Below are positions 9,302 to 18,338 of a stretch of 20,426 bases of DNA, piece after piece (the first letter of the stretch is position 1; the number at the start of each line of letters is the position of its first letter). The translations under genes were made by a program, and so were the position numbers. Source of the stretch: a virus; the IMG/VR virus record IMGVR_UViG_3300008262_007086, positions 1-20,426 of that record; one strand, 5' to 3'. The notes below the pieces were generated by a model. It worked only from the letters and a program-made list of their open reading frames with translations, did not search any database and had not been told where the DNA came from.

Positions 9302-9682
9302 ATGAAACCAACACGGAAAGTAAACGCCAAGAACCGCTGCGCGATCTACACACGAAAGTCCTGTGAAGAGGGACCTGAGCTGGAATTCAACTCGCTGCAA
9401 GCCCAGCGCGAATCAGCTGAGTCATTCATCGCTAGCCAGCAACAAGAAGGCTGGGAATGCTTGCCGGAGCATTACGACGATGGCGGTTTCTTGGGCGATA
9501 GCCTCGATCGCCCCGCTTTTAATCGACTCCTCGAAGACATCAAAAGCGGAAAGATCGATTGCGTGGTGGTCTACAAAGTCGATCGACTCAGCCGCTCCAC
9601 CAGGGAATTATCTAGGATAATGGAAACGTTCGATGAATTCGGTGTTTGCTTCGTCTCGGTGAGAGACCACAACAATAGTTGA
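9302..9682 (+). pseudogene. Truncated serine recombinase (N-terminal catalytic domain only)
   Basis: The 126-residue product is the first part of another large serine recombinase: RCAIYTRKSCEEG with the catalytic serine near residue 20, LEFNSLQAQRESAESFI, DDGGFLGDSLDRPAFNRLL and VVVYKVDRLSRSTREL. It is co-linear with the family until FVSV. It then changes to RDHNNS and stops, where intact members continue for about 350 further residues (rest of the catalytic fold, Recombinase domain, zinc ribbon, coiled coil). No downstream piece was found in the next 100 bases. It differs clearly from the 54-1589 recombinase (EFNSLQAQ versus YSIDAQLR), so it is a relic of a separate element, not a duplicate. 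Confidence 0.85.
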
Positions 9683-9715
9683 GAACCAAGGCGAGATACG
9701 ACTCATCCACCGATC

Positions 9716-9745
9716 CACATTGGAAACCAATCGGCTACCAATGTG
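9716..9745. repeat. Inverted repeat between convergent frames
   Basis: CACATTGG (9716-9723) and CCAATGTG (9738-9745) are perfect 8-base inverted arms separated by 14 bases. They lie between the rightward recombinase relic and the leftward PEP-CTERM gene. A shared terminator is possible, though there is no T run on either strand. Confidence 0.4.
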
Positions 9746-9768
9746 CTGTGAGATTGTTCAGGTCGTAA

Positions 9769-10794
9769 TTAGCAAGATGTCGTATGGCCCTTTCTGCGAG
9801 CACGGGAAGCTAAACACAGTGCACCAAGTCCGAAGATTGCAATGGTGCTTGGTTCGGGAACTTCTCCTCCGGCTGATGACAGCCTAACAACACGAAATCC
9901 TACCGTTAGATTTTTGCCGGTAGGATCCACATCGTCATAACGTGCAGACGATGAAAGGTAGCTTGGTCCATCGAACCATGTACCACCTCGAATTCCTCGG
10001 ATCGATAAACCGTTATTATTTAGGAGGTCGATCGAGCTTTCTTCCCATTCGCGTACGTTTCCGCCAAGCCCCATCACACCAAAAGGACTCAGGCCGCCAG
10101 CACTATCAATGACCGCAGGACCGTTGCCCCCGGGTTGGAAGTAAACCGATGTATTATCTGCAATCCCACCGGAAACAGCCGATGGAGTCAAGCCGTTTAA
10201 GCTTGGGTAGTCCGAATAGCTGTTTGTGACCGGGTTATAGTAAGCCGCCTTGTACCACTCGTTATCACTGGGTAAGGCAAATAGTGCTCGCTTGCTTCGA
10301 TATGGATTTGTTGGGTCATAATCAAGTGGACTCGAAGCGGACCAAGTCGTGATGTTGTCGTTAACTCCTCCAGTGGTGAAATTGTACGCAGCAGTCCCTC
10401 CGCTTACTGTATTGAGCCAATTAACGAATCTAGCCGCCTCATTCCAAGACAATCCGGTCGCTGGTTGATTGGCTCCGTTTCCTCCATACGGTGTCATGTC
10501 AGCTAGCGTAAGGCCGAGTGAGTTCGCGGTGCCAAATGCTGAATTGTACTTGGTGATCATGTCTCGGCTGACCTCGAACTTGCCGATCCCAAAGACGTAA
10601 CCAACACGCCCTGCCGCGTTGGGGGTGGCTGAAGGTCTTGTGTCTGCCAGGTTATTTGTTGCACCGATAGTAACGAAGTCGATGCTAAACTGCGTGGCAC
10701 CCGAGCTGAAGTTCACAACTGCACCGTTGCTTGCGGCAAGCAACGTAAGCAGCGCGGTGGCGAAAAATGAACAACGAACGATAAAAGTCTTCAT
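9769..10794 (-). CDS. Secreted FGE/SUMF1-fold protein with PEP-CTERM anchor
   Basis: A 341-residue exported protein. An N-terminal signal peptide (basic MKTFIVRC, then a hydrophobic ATALLTLLAASNGA) is followed by an FGE-sulfatase/SUMF1-like domain (about 40-305) with the fold's hallmarks GLSWNEAARFVNWLN, LPSDNEWYKAAYY, GNVREWEES, RGIRGGTWFDG and VGFRVVR. The C-terminus is a PEP-CTERM sorting signal: VPEPST, a hydrophobic helix, then RARRK. The copper-binding cysteine pair of true formylglycine-generating enzymes is absent from the segment after RGGTW, so a binding or structural role at the envelope is more likely than sulfatase activation. ATG 10794 is preferred; a TTG at 10806 is possible. 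It is transcribed divergently from the kinase gene. Confidence 0.9.
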   Translation of the reverse strand: MKTFIVRCSFFATALLTLLAASNGAVVNFSSGATQFSIDFVTIGATNNLADTRPSATPNAAGRVGYVFGIGKFEVSRDMITKYNSAFGTANSLGLTLADMTPYGGNGANQPATGLSWNEAARFVNWLNTVSGGTAAYNFTTGGVNDNITTWSASSPLDYDPTNPYRSKRALFALPSDNEWYKAAYYNPVTNSYSDYPSLNGLTPSAVSGGIADNTSVYFQPGGNGPAVIDSAGGLSPFGVMGLGGNVREWEESSIDLLNNNGLSIRGIRGGTWFDGPSYLSSSARYDDVDPTGKNLTVGFRVVRLSSAGGEVPEPSTIAIFGLGALCLASRARRKGHTTSC

Positions 10795-11255
10795 GTGTAT
10801 GTCCAATCAATGGTGGTCTACCTCCATGAAAAAACAACAACTGACTCCTTTCGGCTGCGAAGTGAAGATTTTCATAATAGCAGAATCCCATGTTGGAAAT
10901 CGCACTAGCCAAAGCCTAAGGGCTAGCCGTTTTGTGGATTTTTCATCCATCCCCTGGTGTCGGCTTACGACCCTTTTTAGACCGGACTGAAGAATTCTTG
11001 ATCGATACCTCAATCGAGCCTGATTGCTATTCATCACGGTTTTTTTTTGGATCGAGTTCTTGGCCTACCTGAGCTGATTGTTTACTCAGAAGGTAGCTGG
11101 TTGGGTTTGCAGACAAAAAATGCTAATATACTTTCAAAGTGAAACATGCTTTGATGATTGAATCCCCAAGCTGGTGTCGCTTCCTCTCAGGGCGAGATGT
11201 AGCACGATGCCCCCTCAACCCGCTACCGAATCCAGCGTTATTCCAAATCCAATAC
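10795..11255. other. Divergent intergenic region (PEP-CTERM gene / kinase)
   Basis: Holds a 6-bp hairpin CTAGCC (10905-10910) / GGCTAG (10921-10926), a nine-T run at 11040-11048 and the tentative kinase promoter. Frames inside are short and composition-driven. A longer in-frame start for the kinase exists at 11139, but the ~39 residues it adds look unlike a kinase N-terminus. Confidence 0.5.
11101..11129 (+). promoter_or_regulatory. Possible kinase promoter
   Basis: TTGGGT (11101-11106), a 17-base spacer and TAATAT (11124-11129) resemble sigma-70 boxes. Transcription would begin near 11136, giving a ~120-base leader to the preferred start at 11256, or an almost leaderless message if translation began at 11139. 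Confidence 0.35.
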
Positions 11256-14200
11256 ATGATGACCAACCATCCAAACCCCATCGACGACGATTCCGAGAAG
11301 ACCAAGGCGTTCGAGCCGAGCACAGCCGATGATGCAACGCTCTTGCCTCGTGCAGATTCAGCGCCACGCGATGAGTACGCTACACTTGATCAAAGCCAAA
11401 GTGGGCAGGCAGTCGAGGCACCATCTCGCCCCCAATCGATCAAGTATTTCGGTGACTATGAGATCCTAAGTGAGATCGCTCGCGGTGGGATGGGTGTGGT
11501 CTACAAGGCCAGGCAATCAAAGCTCAATCGCATCGTTGCCGTTAAGATGATCCTCTCGGGCGAACTGGCGTCCCAGGAAGCGATCTCACGATTCTTTACC
11601 GAGGCTCAAGCCGCAGCGACACTTGATCATCCTGGGATCGTGCCCGTCTATGAAATTGGAGAGCATGAAGGCAAGCACTATTTCACGATGGGCTACATCG
11701 AGGGAAAGAGTCTTGCCGAGAAGGTTAACCAAGGGCCACTCCCACCCAAAGAAGCTGCCGAGATGACGCGTAAGATCGCCGAAGCGATCGCTTATGCGCA
11801 CAACAAAGGGGTCATCCATCGCGATTTGAAACCCGCGAATGTTCTCTTGGATGCAAACGGCGAGCCCAAGGTGAGCGATTTTGGGCTAGCGCGCAAGATC
11901 GAGCAAGACAGTGGGCTAACGCGAACTGGGGCGGTGATGGGCACGCCTAGTTACATGCCACCTGAGCAAGCCGCTGGCAAAACAAGCCAAGTGGGACCGT
12001 TGTCGGATGTCTATTCGCTCGGAGCAATACTCTACTGTTTGCTTACTGGTAGGCCACCATTCCAGGCGGCCAATCCGCTCGACACGATGATGCAGGTGAT
12101 TGAGAAGGAGCCTGTATCGGTGCAGACTCTCAATTCAGGGGTGCCCAAGGATCTAGAAACCATATGCCACAAGTGCTTGCAGAAGGATCCAGCGAAGCGA
12201 TATGGATCGGCGCAGGAGTTTGCGGATGATCTACAGCGCTGGCTTAAAGGTGAACCGATTCAAGCGAGAGCGGTGTCGAGTAGCGAGAGAATGTGGAGGT
12301 GGGTTAAACGTAATCCTGTCGTATCGGGCTCGATCGCGGCAGCCATGTCAGCCGTGATTCTAGGATCAATCGCTTCGCTGTGGTTCGGGATCGAGGCGAA
12401 TCGTTCTCGATTCGTTGCCGACCAAAAAACAGCGGAAGTCTTAGCAGAGAAAGCGAATGTTGAAAAACAGAAACAAATTGCGGAAACCGCCGAAGTAAAT
12501 GCAAGGATTGAATCCGAGCATACGCGAGAGGCGTTAGAGATATCTGAGTTGTCGCGTGCACGATCGAATAATTTTTTATCTAGTGCTCTCTTTATTCAAA
12601 ATCGCGCAGAAGAAGCTTGGTGGATCCTACAAAACATCCCCCCTAAATACCGAAATCTCGAATGGTTTCTCTCGATTAAGGAATGCGAGGGTGGAGACGT
12701 TACCTTGCACGGTCATTGTGATCGAGTAACGTGTGTTGCGATGAGTCCTGATGGTAGTCAAGTTGTGTCCGGAAGTTGGGATTCCACCCTTAAGCTTTGG
12801 AATGCTGTTTCGGGAGAACAACTCAAAACATTCGTCGGGCATACAGACGGAATAACCAGCGTTGCCTTCACCTCGGATGGAACGCGAATTGTGTCAGGTA
12901 GCCTTGATAATTCTATCAAAATATGGGATCCGCAGACTGGGCAGGAGACGAGAACGCTTACGGGACATAATGACAGTGTTACAAGTGTCGCTTTCAGTTC
13001 GGATGGTGAACGAATCATCTCTGGAAGCAGAGATACCACTATTAAAGTTTGGAATTTTTCATCCGGAAAAGAGGAACGAACGCTTGCAGGCCATCTCAAT
13101 ACTGTTTCTTGTGTTGCGTTTAGTCCAGACGGAGCAACCGTTGCCTCAGGCAGTTGGGATAATACGATAAAACTTTGGAATTCCAGGACGGGCCAACAGC
13201 TCAAAACTTTTACCGGACAGTCTCATCAGAACTGCGTAGCTTTTAGTCCAGATGGGATGCAAATCATATCCGCAAGCGATGACAATTGCGTTAGGCTTTT
13301 TGATACAAGCTCTGGGGATGAGATTATCGTCCTAACAGGTCACACCGATAGTGTACTCAGTGTTGCTTTCAGTCCCGATGGTACTCAAATCATTTCAGGC
13401 GGTGCTGACAGTACGCTCAAGCTTTGGGATCCTAAATCAGGATTAGAAAAAAGAACACTTAAAGGAAGATTTCGACATGTTACAAGTGTAACTTTTAGTC
13501 CCGATGGTACAAGAATCGTATCTGCGAACGACGCTCAAACCATAAAGTTTTGGGATTCTACAACGGGTATGGATCTGAACACGCTAACAGAGCACACTAG
13601 CCCTGTACTGCGCCTTTCAACAAGTCGGGATGGCCAAAGGCTTATCTCGGGTAGCGAGGACGGGGTTCTTCTTCTATGGGACATTACGACTGGAGAGTTG
13701 ATTCAAAGATTGAATGGCCATAAAAATGCAATAACGAGTGTTGCCTTTAGTCCGGACTGTAAACGGATAGTGTCCGGAAGTACAGATGGAACGATAAAAA
13801 TATGGGATGCTTCTTCTGGTGAATTAACGAGAACCTTCTATAGCGACACGGATTCTGTATCTCGAGTTGTATTTTCGCCAGATGGTGAATTTATCATTTC
13901 CATTGAAGGAAATACTGTCAGGACACGGGAATCAATTACGGGTCAATTAATCAAGACATTTGACAAAGACCTTCAATATCTAACATGCCTGGCTATTAAA
14001 CCGAACAGCTTGCAAATCTTGATCGCCACTAATGATCCAATGCTAATGCTTTTGGATGCCGATTCAGGCCAAGAACTCAATTCCTATTCACATCAAACCA
14101 AAGGCAGTATAACAGATATATCGATAAGTCCCGATTCCGCTACAGTTGCAATTACCCCACCACTTACGCTTCTTGAAGCAGACTCTCTCAAAGAATTGAA

Positions 14201-15068
14201 AAGCTTTGCAAGCAACTCAAAAGCTATCTTAGCTTCCTGCGCAGTTTTCAGTCCTGATAGCACAAGACTCGTCTCTGGTGGGTTCGATAATCACTTGATA
14301 TTTTGGAACACGGCAGAGAATGATGAACTGAAACTAGTCAACGGCCATCGCGGTAGGGTCAACGCCGTAGTCTTCACTCCCGATGGGAGTCAGTTGTTTT
14401 CAGGGAGCATCGACCATACCATCATCCGTTGGGATACATCAAAAAACGAGGAGCTAAAATTACTTACTGGACACAATGGTAAAGTGTCTCATGTTGGGTT
14501 TAATTTTGACGGAACACGTGTCATTTCAGCGGGATGGGACGAGGCTGTAAAGCTTTGGGATGCTGCATCGGGAAAAGAGCTTAGGACGTTTCGCATACCG
14601 AGAAATGAACGAGCTTCAAATATCTTTTTTAGTCCGGACGGCAAATTTGTATCGGCGGAATATGGGTACGATAAAATGGTTTGGGATGTGGAAACTGGAG
14701 CCCAGGTGGATAACGCGCCTACAACCATGGAAGCCACTTTAAAAAACCATTCCGCCGATGGAAGATATCTAGCAATCAGTATCGGTAATAATGTCGCGCT
14801 CGTGGATCTAGAATACGCCAAATCCCCTCGCGAGCAAGCTCGCAGGAAGCGCTCAGCTCGGCTAAAGCCGCACTGGCACCAAGAGCAGGCAGTTGCGGCG
14901 GAGTCCCGTGAAGACTGGTATGCAGCGACTTTTCATCGCGCCTGGGCCGTGAGAGGGAAACCAGACTCAATCCAAGACCGGAAATCGCTGCAGTCGAGCC
15001 TTGCCAAGCTTACGGCTAAATCCCCATCCCTCGCCAAGCAATTTGAAAAATTGTTATCAGCTGACTAA
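11256..15068 (+). CDS. Membrane Ser/Thr protein kinase with WD40 propellers
   Basis: A 1270-residue Hanks-type kinase of the planctomycete multi-domain type. The kinase domain (about residues 65-330) has the glycine loop IARGGMGVVYKA, the VAVK lysine, HRDLKPANVLLD, DFG and GTPSYMPPEQ, so it looks active. A single transmembrane segment (about 355-378, VVSGSIAAAMSAVILG) and a charged coiled coil follow. From about 484 to 1180 there are 16-17 WD40-like repeats of ~42 residues, many with VAFSPDG...SGS.D.TIKLWD. Repeats 10-12 and the last are degenerate. Two propellers, probably extracytoplasmic, would sense a ligand or bind partners for an internal kinase. Start at 11256 (an ATG follows at 11259) is preferred over 11139, but no strong ribosome-binding site marks either. 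Confidence 0.93.
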   Translation: MMTNHPNPIDDDSEKTKAFEPSTADDATLLPRADSAPRDEYATLDQSQSGQAVEAPSRPQSIKYFGDYEILSEIARGGMGVVYKARQSKLNRIVAVKMILSGELASQEAISRFFTEAQAAATLDHPGIVPVYEIGEHEGKHYFTMGYIEGKSLAEKVNQGPLPPKEAAEMTRKIAEAIAYAHNKGVIHRDLKPANVLLDANGEPKVSDFGLARKIEQDSGLTRTGAVMGTPSYMPPEQAAGKTSQVGPLSDVYSLGAILYCLLTGRPPFQAANPLDTMMQVIEKEPVSVQTLNSGVPKDLETICHKCLQKDPAKRYGSAQEFADDLQRWLKGEPIQARAVSSSERMWRWVKRNPVVSGSIAAAMSAVILGSIASLWFGIEANRSRFVADQKTAEVLAEKANVEKQKQIAETAEVNARIESEHTREALEISELSRARSNNFLSSALFIQNRAEEAWWILQNIPPKYRNLEWFLSIKECEGGDVTLHGHCDRVTCVAMSPDGSQVVSGSWDSTLKLWNAVSGEQLKTFVGHTDGITSVAFTSDGTRIVSGSLDNSIKIWDPQTGQETRTLTGHNDSVTSVAFSSDGERIISGSRDTTIKVWNFSSGKEERTLAGHLNTVSCVAFSPDGATVASGSWDNTIKLWNSRTGQQLKTFTGQSHQNCVAFSPDGMQIISASDDNCVRLFDTSSGDEIIVLTGHTDSVLSVAFSPDGTQIISGGADSTLKLWDPKSGLEKRTLKGRFRHVTSVTFSPDGTRIVSANDAQTIKFWDSTTGMDLNTLTEHTSPVLRLSTSRDGQRLISGSEDGVLLLWDITTGELIQRLNGHKNAITSVAFSPDCKRIVSGSTDGTIKIWDASSGELTRTFYSDTDSVSRVVFSPDGEFIISIEGNTVRTRESITGQLIKTFDKDLQYLTCLAIKPNSLQILIATNDPMLMLLDADSGQELNSYSHQTKGSITDISISPDSATVAITPPLTLLEADSLKELKSFASNSKAILASCAVFSPDSTRLVSGGFDNHLIFWNTAENDELKLVNGHRGRVNAVVFTPDGSQLFSGSIDHTIIRWDTSKNEELKLLTGHNGKVSHVGFNFDGTRVISAGWDEAVKLWDAASGKELRTFRIPRNERASNIFFSPDGKFVSAEYGYDKMVWDVETGAQVDNAPTTMEATLKNHSADGRYLAISIGNNVALVDLEYAKSPREQARRKRSARLKPHWHQEQAVAAESREDWYAATFHRAWAVRGKPDSIQDRKSLQSSLAKLTAKSPSLAKQFEKLLSAD

Positions 15069-16139: not shown

Positions 16140-18338
16140 ATGATCATCGAAGTTTGGTCTCTCGATCGCGTTAAACCCTACCCCAACAACCCTCGCGTCA
16201 ACGATGATGCAGTCGATGCCGTAGCTGCATCCATCCGCGAATTCGGATTTCGACAACCCATCGTCGTCGACAACGATGGTGTGATCATCTGCGGGCACAC
16301 TCGCTTTAAAGCAGCTCAGAAACTAGGGCTCAACGAAGCCCCCGTGACGGTTGCCAAAGATCTATCCCCAGAACAGATCAAGGCCTACCGGATCGCCGAC
16401 AACAAAACCGCAGAGCTTGCCGATTGGAATTACGACCTGCTCCCAATCGAGCTGGGCGACCTGCAAACCAACGGCTTCGATTTGTCGCTCTTGGGATTCG
16501 ATTCCGATGAGCTGCTCAAGCTACTCAAAACCGACGTCGAAGAAGGTCTTACCGATCCCGATGATGTGCCGGCACCTCCGGACGCTGCCGTGACCCAACC
16601 TGGTGATCTTTGGATCTTGGGTAACCACCGACTGCTCTGCGGGGATTCCTCGAAACCCGAGGATCTCGATCGACTCCTGGGTGGTAAAACAATCCAACTG
16701 GTCAACACAGACCCGCCCTACAACGTGAAGGTGGAACCGCGATCGAACAACGCGATCGCAGCCGGCCTATCGTCGTTCTCGAACGATACCGCTTCTCAAA
16801 AGCTCAAAGGTGGCCAAGGGAACGCTGCCTCGTTTGGCATCGACCACGAGACCGGCAAACCCAAGCATCCGCCCACGCACAAGAAGCTCCGTGCTAAGGA
16901 TCGTCCCCTGGCCAACGACTTTGTGAGCGATCAGGAGTTCGATCGACTGCTCGATGCGTGGTTTGGGAACATCGCTCGGGTGCTCGACCCAGGTCGTGGT
17001 TTTTACATCTGGGGTGGGTACGCCAACTGCGGCAACTATCCCCCGTTCCTCAAGAAGCATGCTTTGTATTTCAGCCAAGCGATCATCTGGGACAAGATGC
17101 ATCCGGTGCTTACCCGTAAAGACTTCATGGGAGCCCATGAATGGTGCCAACCACCAGATACGATGGTTCAAACCGCGGGGGGAACGAGTACGCTGGGCCA
17201 AATGCGTGACGACGACCGCGTGGTTAGTTTTTATTCGCACAGCTCAGCGATCGTCGGCTTGCGAGATGGCTACCGAGTCAAAGTCGGCCGGCGGCCTTAC
17301 GGAGGAAAGCTCTATGGGATAACAACCCCGACGAAGCAATCTTGGGGTACCGATGGTCACATCTGGACGGTACGCATGACCGCAGATTACGCATCGCGAT
17401 GGTGCGTGTATTTGATGCGTCGTGGCACTTGGTGGCGAGTGGGCATGACCAAGATGCGAACCACCTGGGGCTTTGGCGTAAAGGGGCGATTGCTTCATGA
17501 GCTTGGGGATGAGGCCTGGATTCTCTCGCTGCATGACTCGGCTGCGGAGGCTCGGATGCAAGAACAGCTGGTGTCGATTCAATTCGGGATTCCTCAGACA
17601 TGCTGGGTCACGAATCGAAACTCGACGCACAGGCAAAGTGATCACATAAGGGACTTTTACGCTCAACTTGATGCGGTTGCTCAGGAGATCGCTGCTTGCA
17701 ACGTTCTTGCACACTTCAATCGAAACCGAAAGTATCCGTTTGTCGAGACCAACGATACCAGAGTAAAGTTTGGAGCAAGGCAGTCGATCCAAGTGCGTTC
17801 GTGCAATCTTCTTCCTGGCAGCATGGAAATTCCAACCCCAACGCGAGGTCAAAGTGTGGCGTGGACTCCGATCCGGGCCGTTGATGTTCAGGGCTACTCT
17901 GGTGAGGTTGTCTCCTTGGGAGTCGATACGCATGAGCACTACATTGCCGACGGACTTGTCACCCATAATTGCTTTTATGGGTGGCTTGAAGGGGCTGCCC
18001 ACGTGTACCTCGGGCCCAACAACGCTACGGACCTGTGGCAGATCAAAAAGGTTAACCCGCAGTCGATGGTCCATCTGACTGAAAAGCCCGTCGAGCTGGC
18101 GGTCCGTGCGATGCAGTACTCGTCGCGACCAGGAGAGAACGTGCTGGATCTGTTTGGTGGTAGCGGATCGACCTTGATCGCTGCCCAGCAGACTGGTCGG
18201 CATGCGTTCCTCATGGAGCTCGACCCGCTCTATGCCGACGTCATCGTCGATCGGTACCAGCGGTTCACTGGCAAGCCGGCGATCCTAGAGCGGACGGGGA
18301 CCTCCCCCATTCCGATGCGTGCGGCCGACGCGAAGTAG
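16140..18338 (+). CDS. ParB-like / beta-class DNA methyltransferase interrupted by an intein
   Basis: A 732-residue precursor that should become a 457-residue methyltransferase after splicing. Residues 1-110 are a ParB/Srx-like domain (VKPYPNNPR, FRQPIVVDNDGVIICGHTR). The catalytic part carries DPPY (191-194) before LDLFGGSGST (around 672 in the precursor), followed by ELDPLYADVI; this IV-before-I order and the D/P-P-Y motif fit a beta-class N6-adenine or N4-cytosine enzyme. The intein splits the host at GAHEW / CFYGW, inside the conserved catalytic core, so activity must depend on splicing. ATG 16140 has AAAGG 7 bases upstream; the 63 in-frame codons before it are low-complexity leader. No restriction partner is adjacent. 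ParB-methylase fusions are common in phages and integrative elements. Confidence 0.93.
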   Translation: MIIEVWSLDRVKPYPNNPRVNDDAVDAVAASIREFGFRQPIVVDNDGVIICGHTRFKAAQKLGLNEAPVTVAKDLSPEQIKAYRIADNKTAELADWNYDLLPIELGDLQTNGFDLSLLGFDSDELLKLLKTDVEEGLTDPDDVPAPPDAAVTQPGDLWILGNHRLLCGDSSKPEDLDRLLGGKTIQLVNTDPPYNVKVEPRSNNAIAAGLSSFSNDTASQKLKGGQGNAASFGIDHETGKPKHPPTHKKLRAKDRPLANDFVSDQEFDRLLDAWFGNIARVLDPGRGFYIWGGYANCGNYPPFLKKHALYFSQAIIWDKMHPVLTRKDFMGAHEWCQPPDTMVQTAGGTSTLGQMRDDDRVVSFYSHSSAIVGLRDGYRVKVGRRPYGGKLYGITTPTKQSWGTDGHIWTVRMTADYASRWCVYLMRRGTWWRVGMTKMRTTWGFGVKGRLLHELGDEAWILSLHDSAAEARMQEQLVSIQFGIPQTCWVTNRNSTHRQSDHIRDFYAQLDAVAQEIAACNVLAHFNRNRKYPFVETNDTRVKFGARQSIQVRSCNLLPGSMEIPTPTRGQSVAWTPIRAVDVQGYSGEVVSLGVDTHEHYIADGLVTHNCFYGWLEGAAHVYLGPNNATDLWQIKKVNPQSMVHLTEKPVELAVRAMQYSSRPGENVLDLFGGSGSTLIAAQQTGRHAFLMELDPLYADVIVDRYQRFTGKPAILERTGTSPIPMRAADAK
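17145..17969 (+). mobile_element. Intein with GIY-YIG-like homing domain, inserted in the methyltransferase
   Basis: A 275-residue in-frame intein. It starts with Cys1 (CQPPDTMVQTAGG, block A), has a block B-like TDGH at residues 69-72 and ends with block F/G VVSLGVDTHEHYIADGLVTHN before Cys+1 of CFYGW. All residues for standard class 1 splicing are therefore present. Between the splicing halves lies a nuclease-like segment. VYL with Tyr at 89, then WRVG ending at residue 100, resemble the GIY and YIG motifs; Arg115 in KGRLLHE and Glu140 in RMQEQ fit the catalytic Arg and Glu. LAGLIDADG motifs are not seen. G+C resembles the host gene, suggesting long residence or a similar donor. Confidence 0.92.

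Follow-up and report, generated by a model that had tools for sequence, protein, structure and literature searches.

The window analysed here, a viral record of 20,426 bp, carries a DNA methyltransferase gene that is interrupted in frame by what is very probably a mobile class 1 intein, lodged in a prophage methyltransferase and bearing a homing endonuclease of the GIY-YIG type. With less assurance, we also consider it the better-founded expectation that this element represents a widespread, hitherto unrecognized class of inteins—mobilized by a divergent GIY-YIG nuclease that has arginine in place of the tyrosine of the YIG motif—which moves among the phages, prophages, and plasmids of some eight bacterial phyla and whose hosts include methyltransferases, SF1 helicases, and DnaE, among other proteins.

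The precursor gene (16140..18338, plus strand) is a single open reading frame that starts with an ATG at 16140, ends at 18338, and encodes 732 amino acids, or 457 if the insert is subtracted. Pfam places in it a ParB-N domain (PF02195; E 2e-8) and an N6_N4 DNA methyltransferase domain (PF01555; E 4e-23), and the frame matches PHROG 498 with an E-value of 1e-121. The insert (17145-17969, plus strand) comprises 275 open codons between those for GAHEW and CFYGW, dividing an N-extein (16140..17144, plus strand) from a C-extein (17970..18338, plus strand) that opens with the +1 cysteine (17970-17972). Two intein-free homologues, L144 and L145, run through GAHEW-CFYGW uninterrupted at exactly the insertion codon, and the borders of the intein are therefore correct to the codon; in all, 80 intein-free homologues span the same codon boundary without a break. 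The N-extein includes DPPY (16710-16721) and the C-extein FGGSGS (18153-18170), which we take to be the catalytic motif IV and the AdoMet-binding motif I, respectively, of this methyltransferase class. Because the intein lies between these two motifs, it is reasonable to suppose, as a sequence-only reading of the window had done, that the methyltransferase would need splicing for activity.

Elsewhere in the window, a tRNA-Pro gene (34-109) overlaps the end of a serine integrase gene (54-1589) in an arrangement that looks like a prophage attachment site. Between the phage replication genes and the methyltransferase lies a stretch (9302-15068) that holds a truncated serine recombinase followed by host-like genes of lower GC, among them an FGE-sulfatase with PEP-CTERM and a protein kinase with WD40 repeats; this stretch is either cargo or a provirus boundary.

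The splicing (Hint) part of the intein (275 amino acids, Cys1 to Asn275; 17145..17969, plus strand) is divided into two halves. The N-terminal half (residues 1-82; 17145..17390, plus strand) is delimited by model strands (E7-E78), by structural matches to inteins, and by its presence in a mini-intein (L140), and includes TDGH at 17349-17360; the C-terminal half (residues 213-275; 17781..17969, plus strand), delimited by conservation, the model, and a PF14890 match ending at residue 275, closes with His274-Asn275. The class 1 signatures named in the sequence-only reading were all found in place, namely Cys1 directly after GAHEW, TDGH at residues 69-72, YIADGLVTHN running to Asn275, and Cys+1. 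Among 70 non-redundant relatives, Cys1 is present in 69 (the remaining one has a gap), His72 and Asn275 in all 70, and His274 in 69, whereas the +1 residue is Cys in methyltransferase inteins and Cys or Ser in helicase inteins. Searches with intein profiles gave weak but correctly placed matches, to Pfam Intein_splicing at E 0.002 and, for the full open reading frame, to TIGR01443 at E 0.003, those to the Pfam intein models falling short of the curated Pfam cut-off. An AlphaFold (AF2) model of the intein, built from a 70-sequence alignment, has a mean pLDDT of 96.1 and a pTM of 0.91; the top Foldseek matches of this model in the PDB are all Hint or intein chains (E down to 1e-5), and a profile hmmsearch against PDB sequences returned Hint proteins only, while the single intein sequence found nothing useful there by phmmer or hmmsearch. 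The earlier proposal of a complete intein at 17145-17969 is thus borne out by structure, by these profile matches, and by the empty alleles: conservation and modelling confirm residues 1-275 as a complete class 1 intein, which would be expected to splice.

Between the Hint halves lies the putative GIY-YIG domain (residues ~83-155; 17391..17609, plus strand), which had been called by eye from Tyr89, Val99-Gly100, Arg115, and Glu140. These residues are placed as then described, with Tyr89 at 17409-17411, Gly100 at 17442-17444, Arg115 at 17487-17489, and Glu140 at 17562-17564 (all plus strand), and the call is now supported by residue invariance, topology, structural matches among viral models, and a shuffle-controlled profile alignment. 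Tyr89, Gly100, and Arg115 occur in 70/70 non-redundant relatives (27-94% identical) and Glu140 in 69/70. The two patterns by which relatives had been collected sat at the ends of the intein and included none of the four residues, so that the conservation of these is no artefact of pattern selection. At position 98 (17436-17438, plus strand), where the YIG motif has its tyrosine, 69 of the 70 have Arg and one has Lys. Basic residues also occupy this position in other accepted GIY-YIG enzymes, Hpy188I among them; the YIG tyrosine is consequently no strict criterion of the superfamily, and we therefore claim the domain as a divergent GIY-YIG domain, in which the departure at Arg98 bears more on mechanism than on fold.

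The predicted topology of the domain is beta-beta-alpha-beta-alpha (strands 86-93 and 96-103, helix 111-118, strand 123-130, and helix 133-147), and the domain modelled alone reaches a pLDDT of 91. In a Foldseek search of BFVD, a collection of predicted viral structures, the first two matches are named as a methyltransferase and a helicase and the third is unnamed; by size and similarity, these three are other members of the same intein family. The first matches that are not inteins are a GIY-YIG domain protein (probability 0.97) and a phage homing endonuclease (0.94), followed by weaker matches to Hef-like, intron, and SegE-like GIY-YIG enzymes, interspersed with unnamed proteins. Aligned by hhalign with a profile of about 80 Seg/Tev-type GIY-YIG proteins gathered with T4 sequences, the domain profile scored 27.4, compared with a mean of 10.0 (SD 2.0, maximum 17.8) for 299 column shuffles and 14.5 for the reversed profile, and the Tyr, Gly, and Glu columns coincided with those of the Seg/Tev-type nucleases; a two-sequence MUG113 alignment, also tried as an hhalign target, was too shallow. 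The domain is followed by a helical tail (residues ~156-212; 17610..17780, plus strand; model helices at 165-173 and 177-190) that presumably contacts DNA, and in which no canonical DNA-binding module (NUMOD) was identified.

Full-length relatives found by tblastn occupy the same site of the same gene in Streptococcus suis phages and a Providencia plasmid, and helicase genes in SPO1-type phages, Vibrio phage RYC, and cyanobacterial plasmids; Justusliebigvirus phages gave a partial match. Two collection scans yielded 116 loci from viral contigs and about eight bacterial phyla (Planctomycetota, Acidobacteriota, Bacteroidota, Fibrobacterota, Pseudomonadota, Cyanobacteriota, Bacillota, and Binatota), with a full copy in about 5 of 392 Planctomycetota genomes. 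We conclude that the family is widespread, has gone unrecognized, and numbers at least about 100 copies. The element is hosted by the methyltransferase, by SF1 helicases (interrupted at several closely spaced points of motif III), by DnaE (L106), and by a PD-(D/E)XK nuclease (L104); the host protein at a further locus (L095) matched no Pfam family but possibly resembles a terminase large subunit. In the intein tree, the methyltransferase inteins fall on one side of a branch (SH-aLRT 97), as expected for alleles of one site.

Several loci depart from the common layout. A chromosomal UvrD-type helicase of Planctomycetota (L246) has a GIY-YIG intein of greater length, with an additional domain, in a layout that resembles the helicase intein of Justusliebigvirus muut (L022). 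Two methyltransferase frames have a second intein before the H/T(E,M)KP motif (L039:3047-3673 and L072:3853-4971), a mini-intein in the former and an apparently LAGLIDADG-bearing one in the latter, so that the gene of L072 would combine two inteins that differ in nuclease type. In two further loci (L136:1499-1948 and L138:3088-3519), the nuclease domain is interrupted at almost the same position (CAEQV.S..YGIPTT.W), and an ATPase-like gene or the methyltransferase N-terminus is joined to it on the upstream side; these breaks are deletions or assembly joins.

Several observations indicate that the intein moves, or moved recently, presumably by homing. Closely similar methyltransferases differ by its presence or absence, the exteins of the intein-free L144 and L145 being 91-92% identical to those of the window. 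Intein and extein histories conflict in both directions: L076 and L048 have exteins that are 94% identical and inteins that are 58% identical, while L086 and L129 have inteins that are 84% identical and exteins that are 55% identical. Neither the intein nor the extein data tolerate the tree of the other (delta-lnL 1049 and 1593), and as the AU tests were made with 1000 replicates and fast trees, the size of these likelihood gaps carries more weight than the AU p-value; some of the conflict could be due to ordinary phage recombination. In comparisons of close relatives whose dS is unsaturated, the nuclease has the lowest dN/dS (about 0-0.03), followed by the Hint part (0.04-0.13) and the tail (0.13-0.19); that the nuclease is the most constrained part suggests recent homing activity. 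A mini-intein of Pirellulaceae (L140:1733-2164; 144 amino acids) sits at the same site and keeps the splicing halves but not residues ~80-212, i.e. the GIY-YIG domain and its tail.

The sequences that flank the site are more equivocal. Identity to intein-bearing relatives climbs to 92-97% near the site and identity to an allele with Ala at +1 (L143) drops to 65-70%, but the intein-free L144 and L145 likewise reach 88-97% on the N-terminal side, so that co-conversion of the flanks is only suggested. The +1 residue, Cys in intein-bearing methyltransferases, is Ala in 23 of the 80 intein-free alleles examined (L143, L146-L159, L164-L165, L176, L190, L192, L195-L196, and L199). Alanine at this position suggests incompatibility with class 1 splicing of such an insert; being unable to splice it, these alleles may be protected, or they may reflect an older difference.

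Around the observed anatomy, predicted fold, invariant residues resembling an active site, empty alleles, conflicting histories, and strong purifying selection on the nuclease, we infer splicing, DNA cutting, and the position of the cut as follows. The Hint part (residues 1-82 and 213-275) would excise itself through an acyl shift at Cys1, transfer to Cys+1, and cyclization of Asn275, thereby restoring an intact methyltransferase of 457 residues. The GIY-YIG domain and helical tail (residues 83-212) would constitute the homing endonuclease, with which the freed intein would cleave intein-free copies of this methyltransferase gene at the GAHEW/CFYGW codons or close by; repair templated by an intein-bearing copy would then spread the element between phages and prophages.

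An unlikely alternative is that the intein splices while its GIY-YIG domain no longer cuts, or only weakly nicks, and persists as a structural or regulatory insert spread by phage recombination. Such recombination is common, and the replacement of the YIG tyrosine by Arg in 69/70 relatives would fit a nuclease that has lost its function; yet Tyr89, Arg115, and Glu140 are retained in 69-70 of the 70, dN/dS is lowest in precisely this domain, and the element recurs in such dissimilar hosts as methyltransferase, helicase, and DnaE. The mini-intein, moreover, shows that the nuclease can be lost, and a domain that can be lost has been retained for a reason. We thus favour an active homing endonuclease over an inert insert.

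A challenge to the GIY-YIG assignment itself—and its main weakness—comes from the searches in which the domain went undetected. Pfam GIY-YIG models, profiles of the kind with which the sequence-only reading had suggested comparing the segment, matched none of the 70 relatives scanned singly, and single-sequence searches of Pfam, NCBIfam, and PHROGs left the middle domain without a match. PF01541 and PF13455, run on SPO1, Justusliebigvirus muut, the window, and an empty relative, missed the inteins. Queried with the domain, phmmer and hmmsearch found no PDB sequence, and a Foldseek comparison with PDB structures yielded no GIY-YIG match (best E 1.9). These results would suit another nuclease or DNA-binding fold that merely resembles GIY-YIG, a reading that we hold to be quite improbable in view of the topology, the viral Foldseek matches, and an hhalign score far above the shuffled null in the same register. 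We take the missing Pfam and PDB matches as a mark of divergence, and the lack of a Pfam GIY-YIG model that detects the domain is probably why it has been overlooked. The other part of the original description, that LAGLIDADG motifs are lacking, stands, as neither a reading of 17145-17969 nor Pfam disclosed one. That a nuclease lies within a methyltransferase also brings to mind a non-splicing domain of the enzyme, e.g. a restriction-type nuclease in one chain with its cognate modification enzyme. Conserved intein termini, the Hint fold, and homologues that are intein-free at the exact codon boundary leave this with hardly any credibility, and we rejected it as the same insert also occurs in helicases and DnaE. 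The divergent GIY-YIG intein accordingly remains our preferred reading.

Intein nucleases are described as LAGLIDADG or, less often, HNH enzymes. A 2006 survey of GIY-YIG proteins knew of none in inteins (PMC1564403), and phrase and co-occurrence searches of the literature, with subscription papers mostly outside their scope, returned no report of a GIY-YIG intein; it is likely that none has been reported before. The closest named counterpart is the intein in gp34.33, a UvrD-type helicase of Bacillus phage SPO1, together with its CampHawk allele: it also has 275 amino acids, is 34% identical end to end, and shares the Y/R/G/R/E set and the CQP...THN ends, but is inserted at the helicase motif III site GDDDQ/SMYSF and has Ser rather than Cys at +1. 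The SPO1 record annotates this insert as ‘intein’ without a nuclease type, the CampHawk genome paper likewise calls it an intein (PMC3868849), and neither source, so far as read here, names a GIY-YIG domain. The methyltransferase inteins of the Streptococcus suis phages and the Providencia plasmid share the site (HEP/CLYGW) and show 39-40% identity along the whole intein; those of S. suis have about ten more residues and are deposited as ‘adenine-specific methyltransferase’ and the like, with no intein annotation.

Other systems agree in part. An actinophage intein also occupies a phage DNA methylase and is patchily distributed and horizontally transferred, but has 327 amino acids and a LAGLIDADG nuclease (PMC9957025). 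The T4 Seg proteins, I-TevII, and the MUG113/T5orf172 group have Tyr, Gly, and Glu in register with the intein domain—and a MUG113-type protein (L224) reads KAG, so that a basic residue likewise stands at the place of the second tyrosine—but these nucleases are free-standing or reside in group I introns. In the AceL NrdHF split intein, the nuclease is a separate gene between the split halves (PMC7891396), whereas here it lies within one polypeptide. The element as such was therefore already known as an intein in SPO1; its GIY-YIG nature probably has no earlier report, and the size of the family and the family-wide Arg go beyond what the sequence-only reading described.

The finding means that Hint domains have captured a further type of nuclease, in a family that Pfam misses. 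The family offers compact inteins of 275 amino acids and a small new site-specific nuclease. Since SPO1, a model phage propagated in B. subtilis, belongs to the family, both splicing and homing are testable at once.
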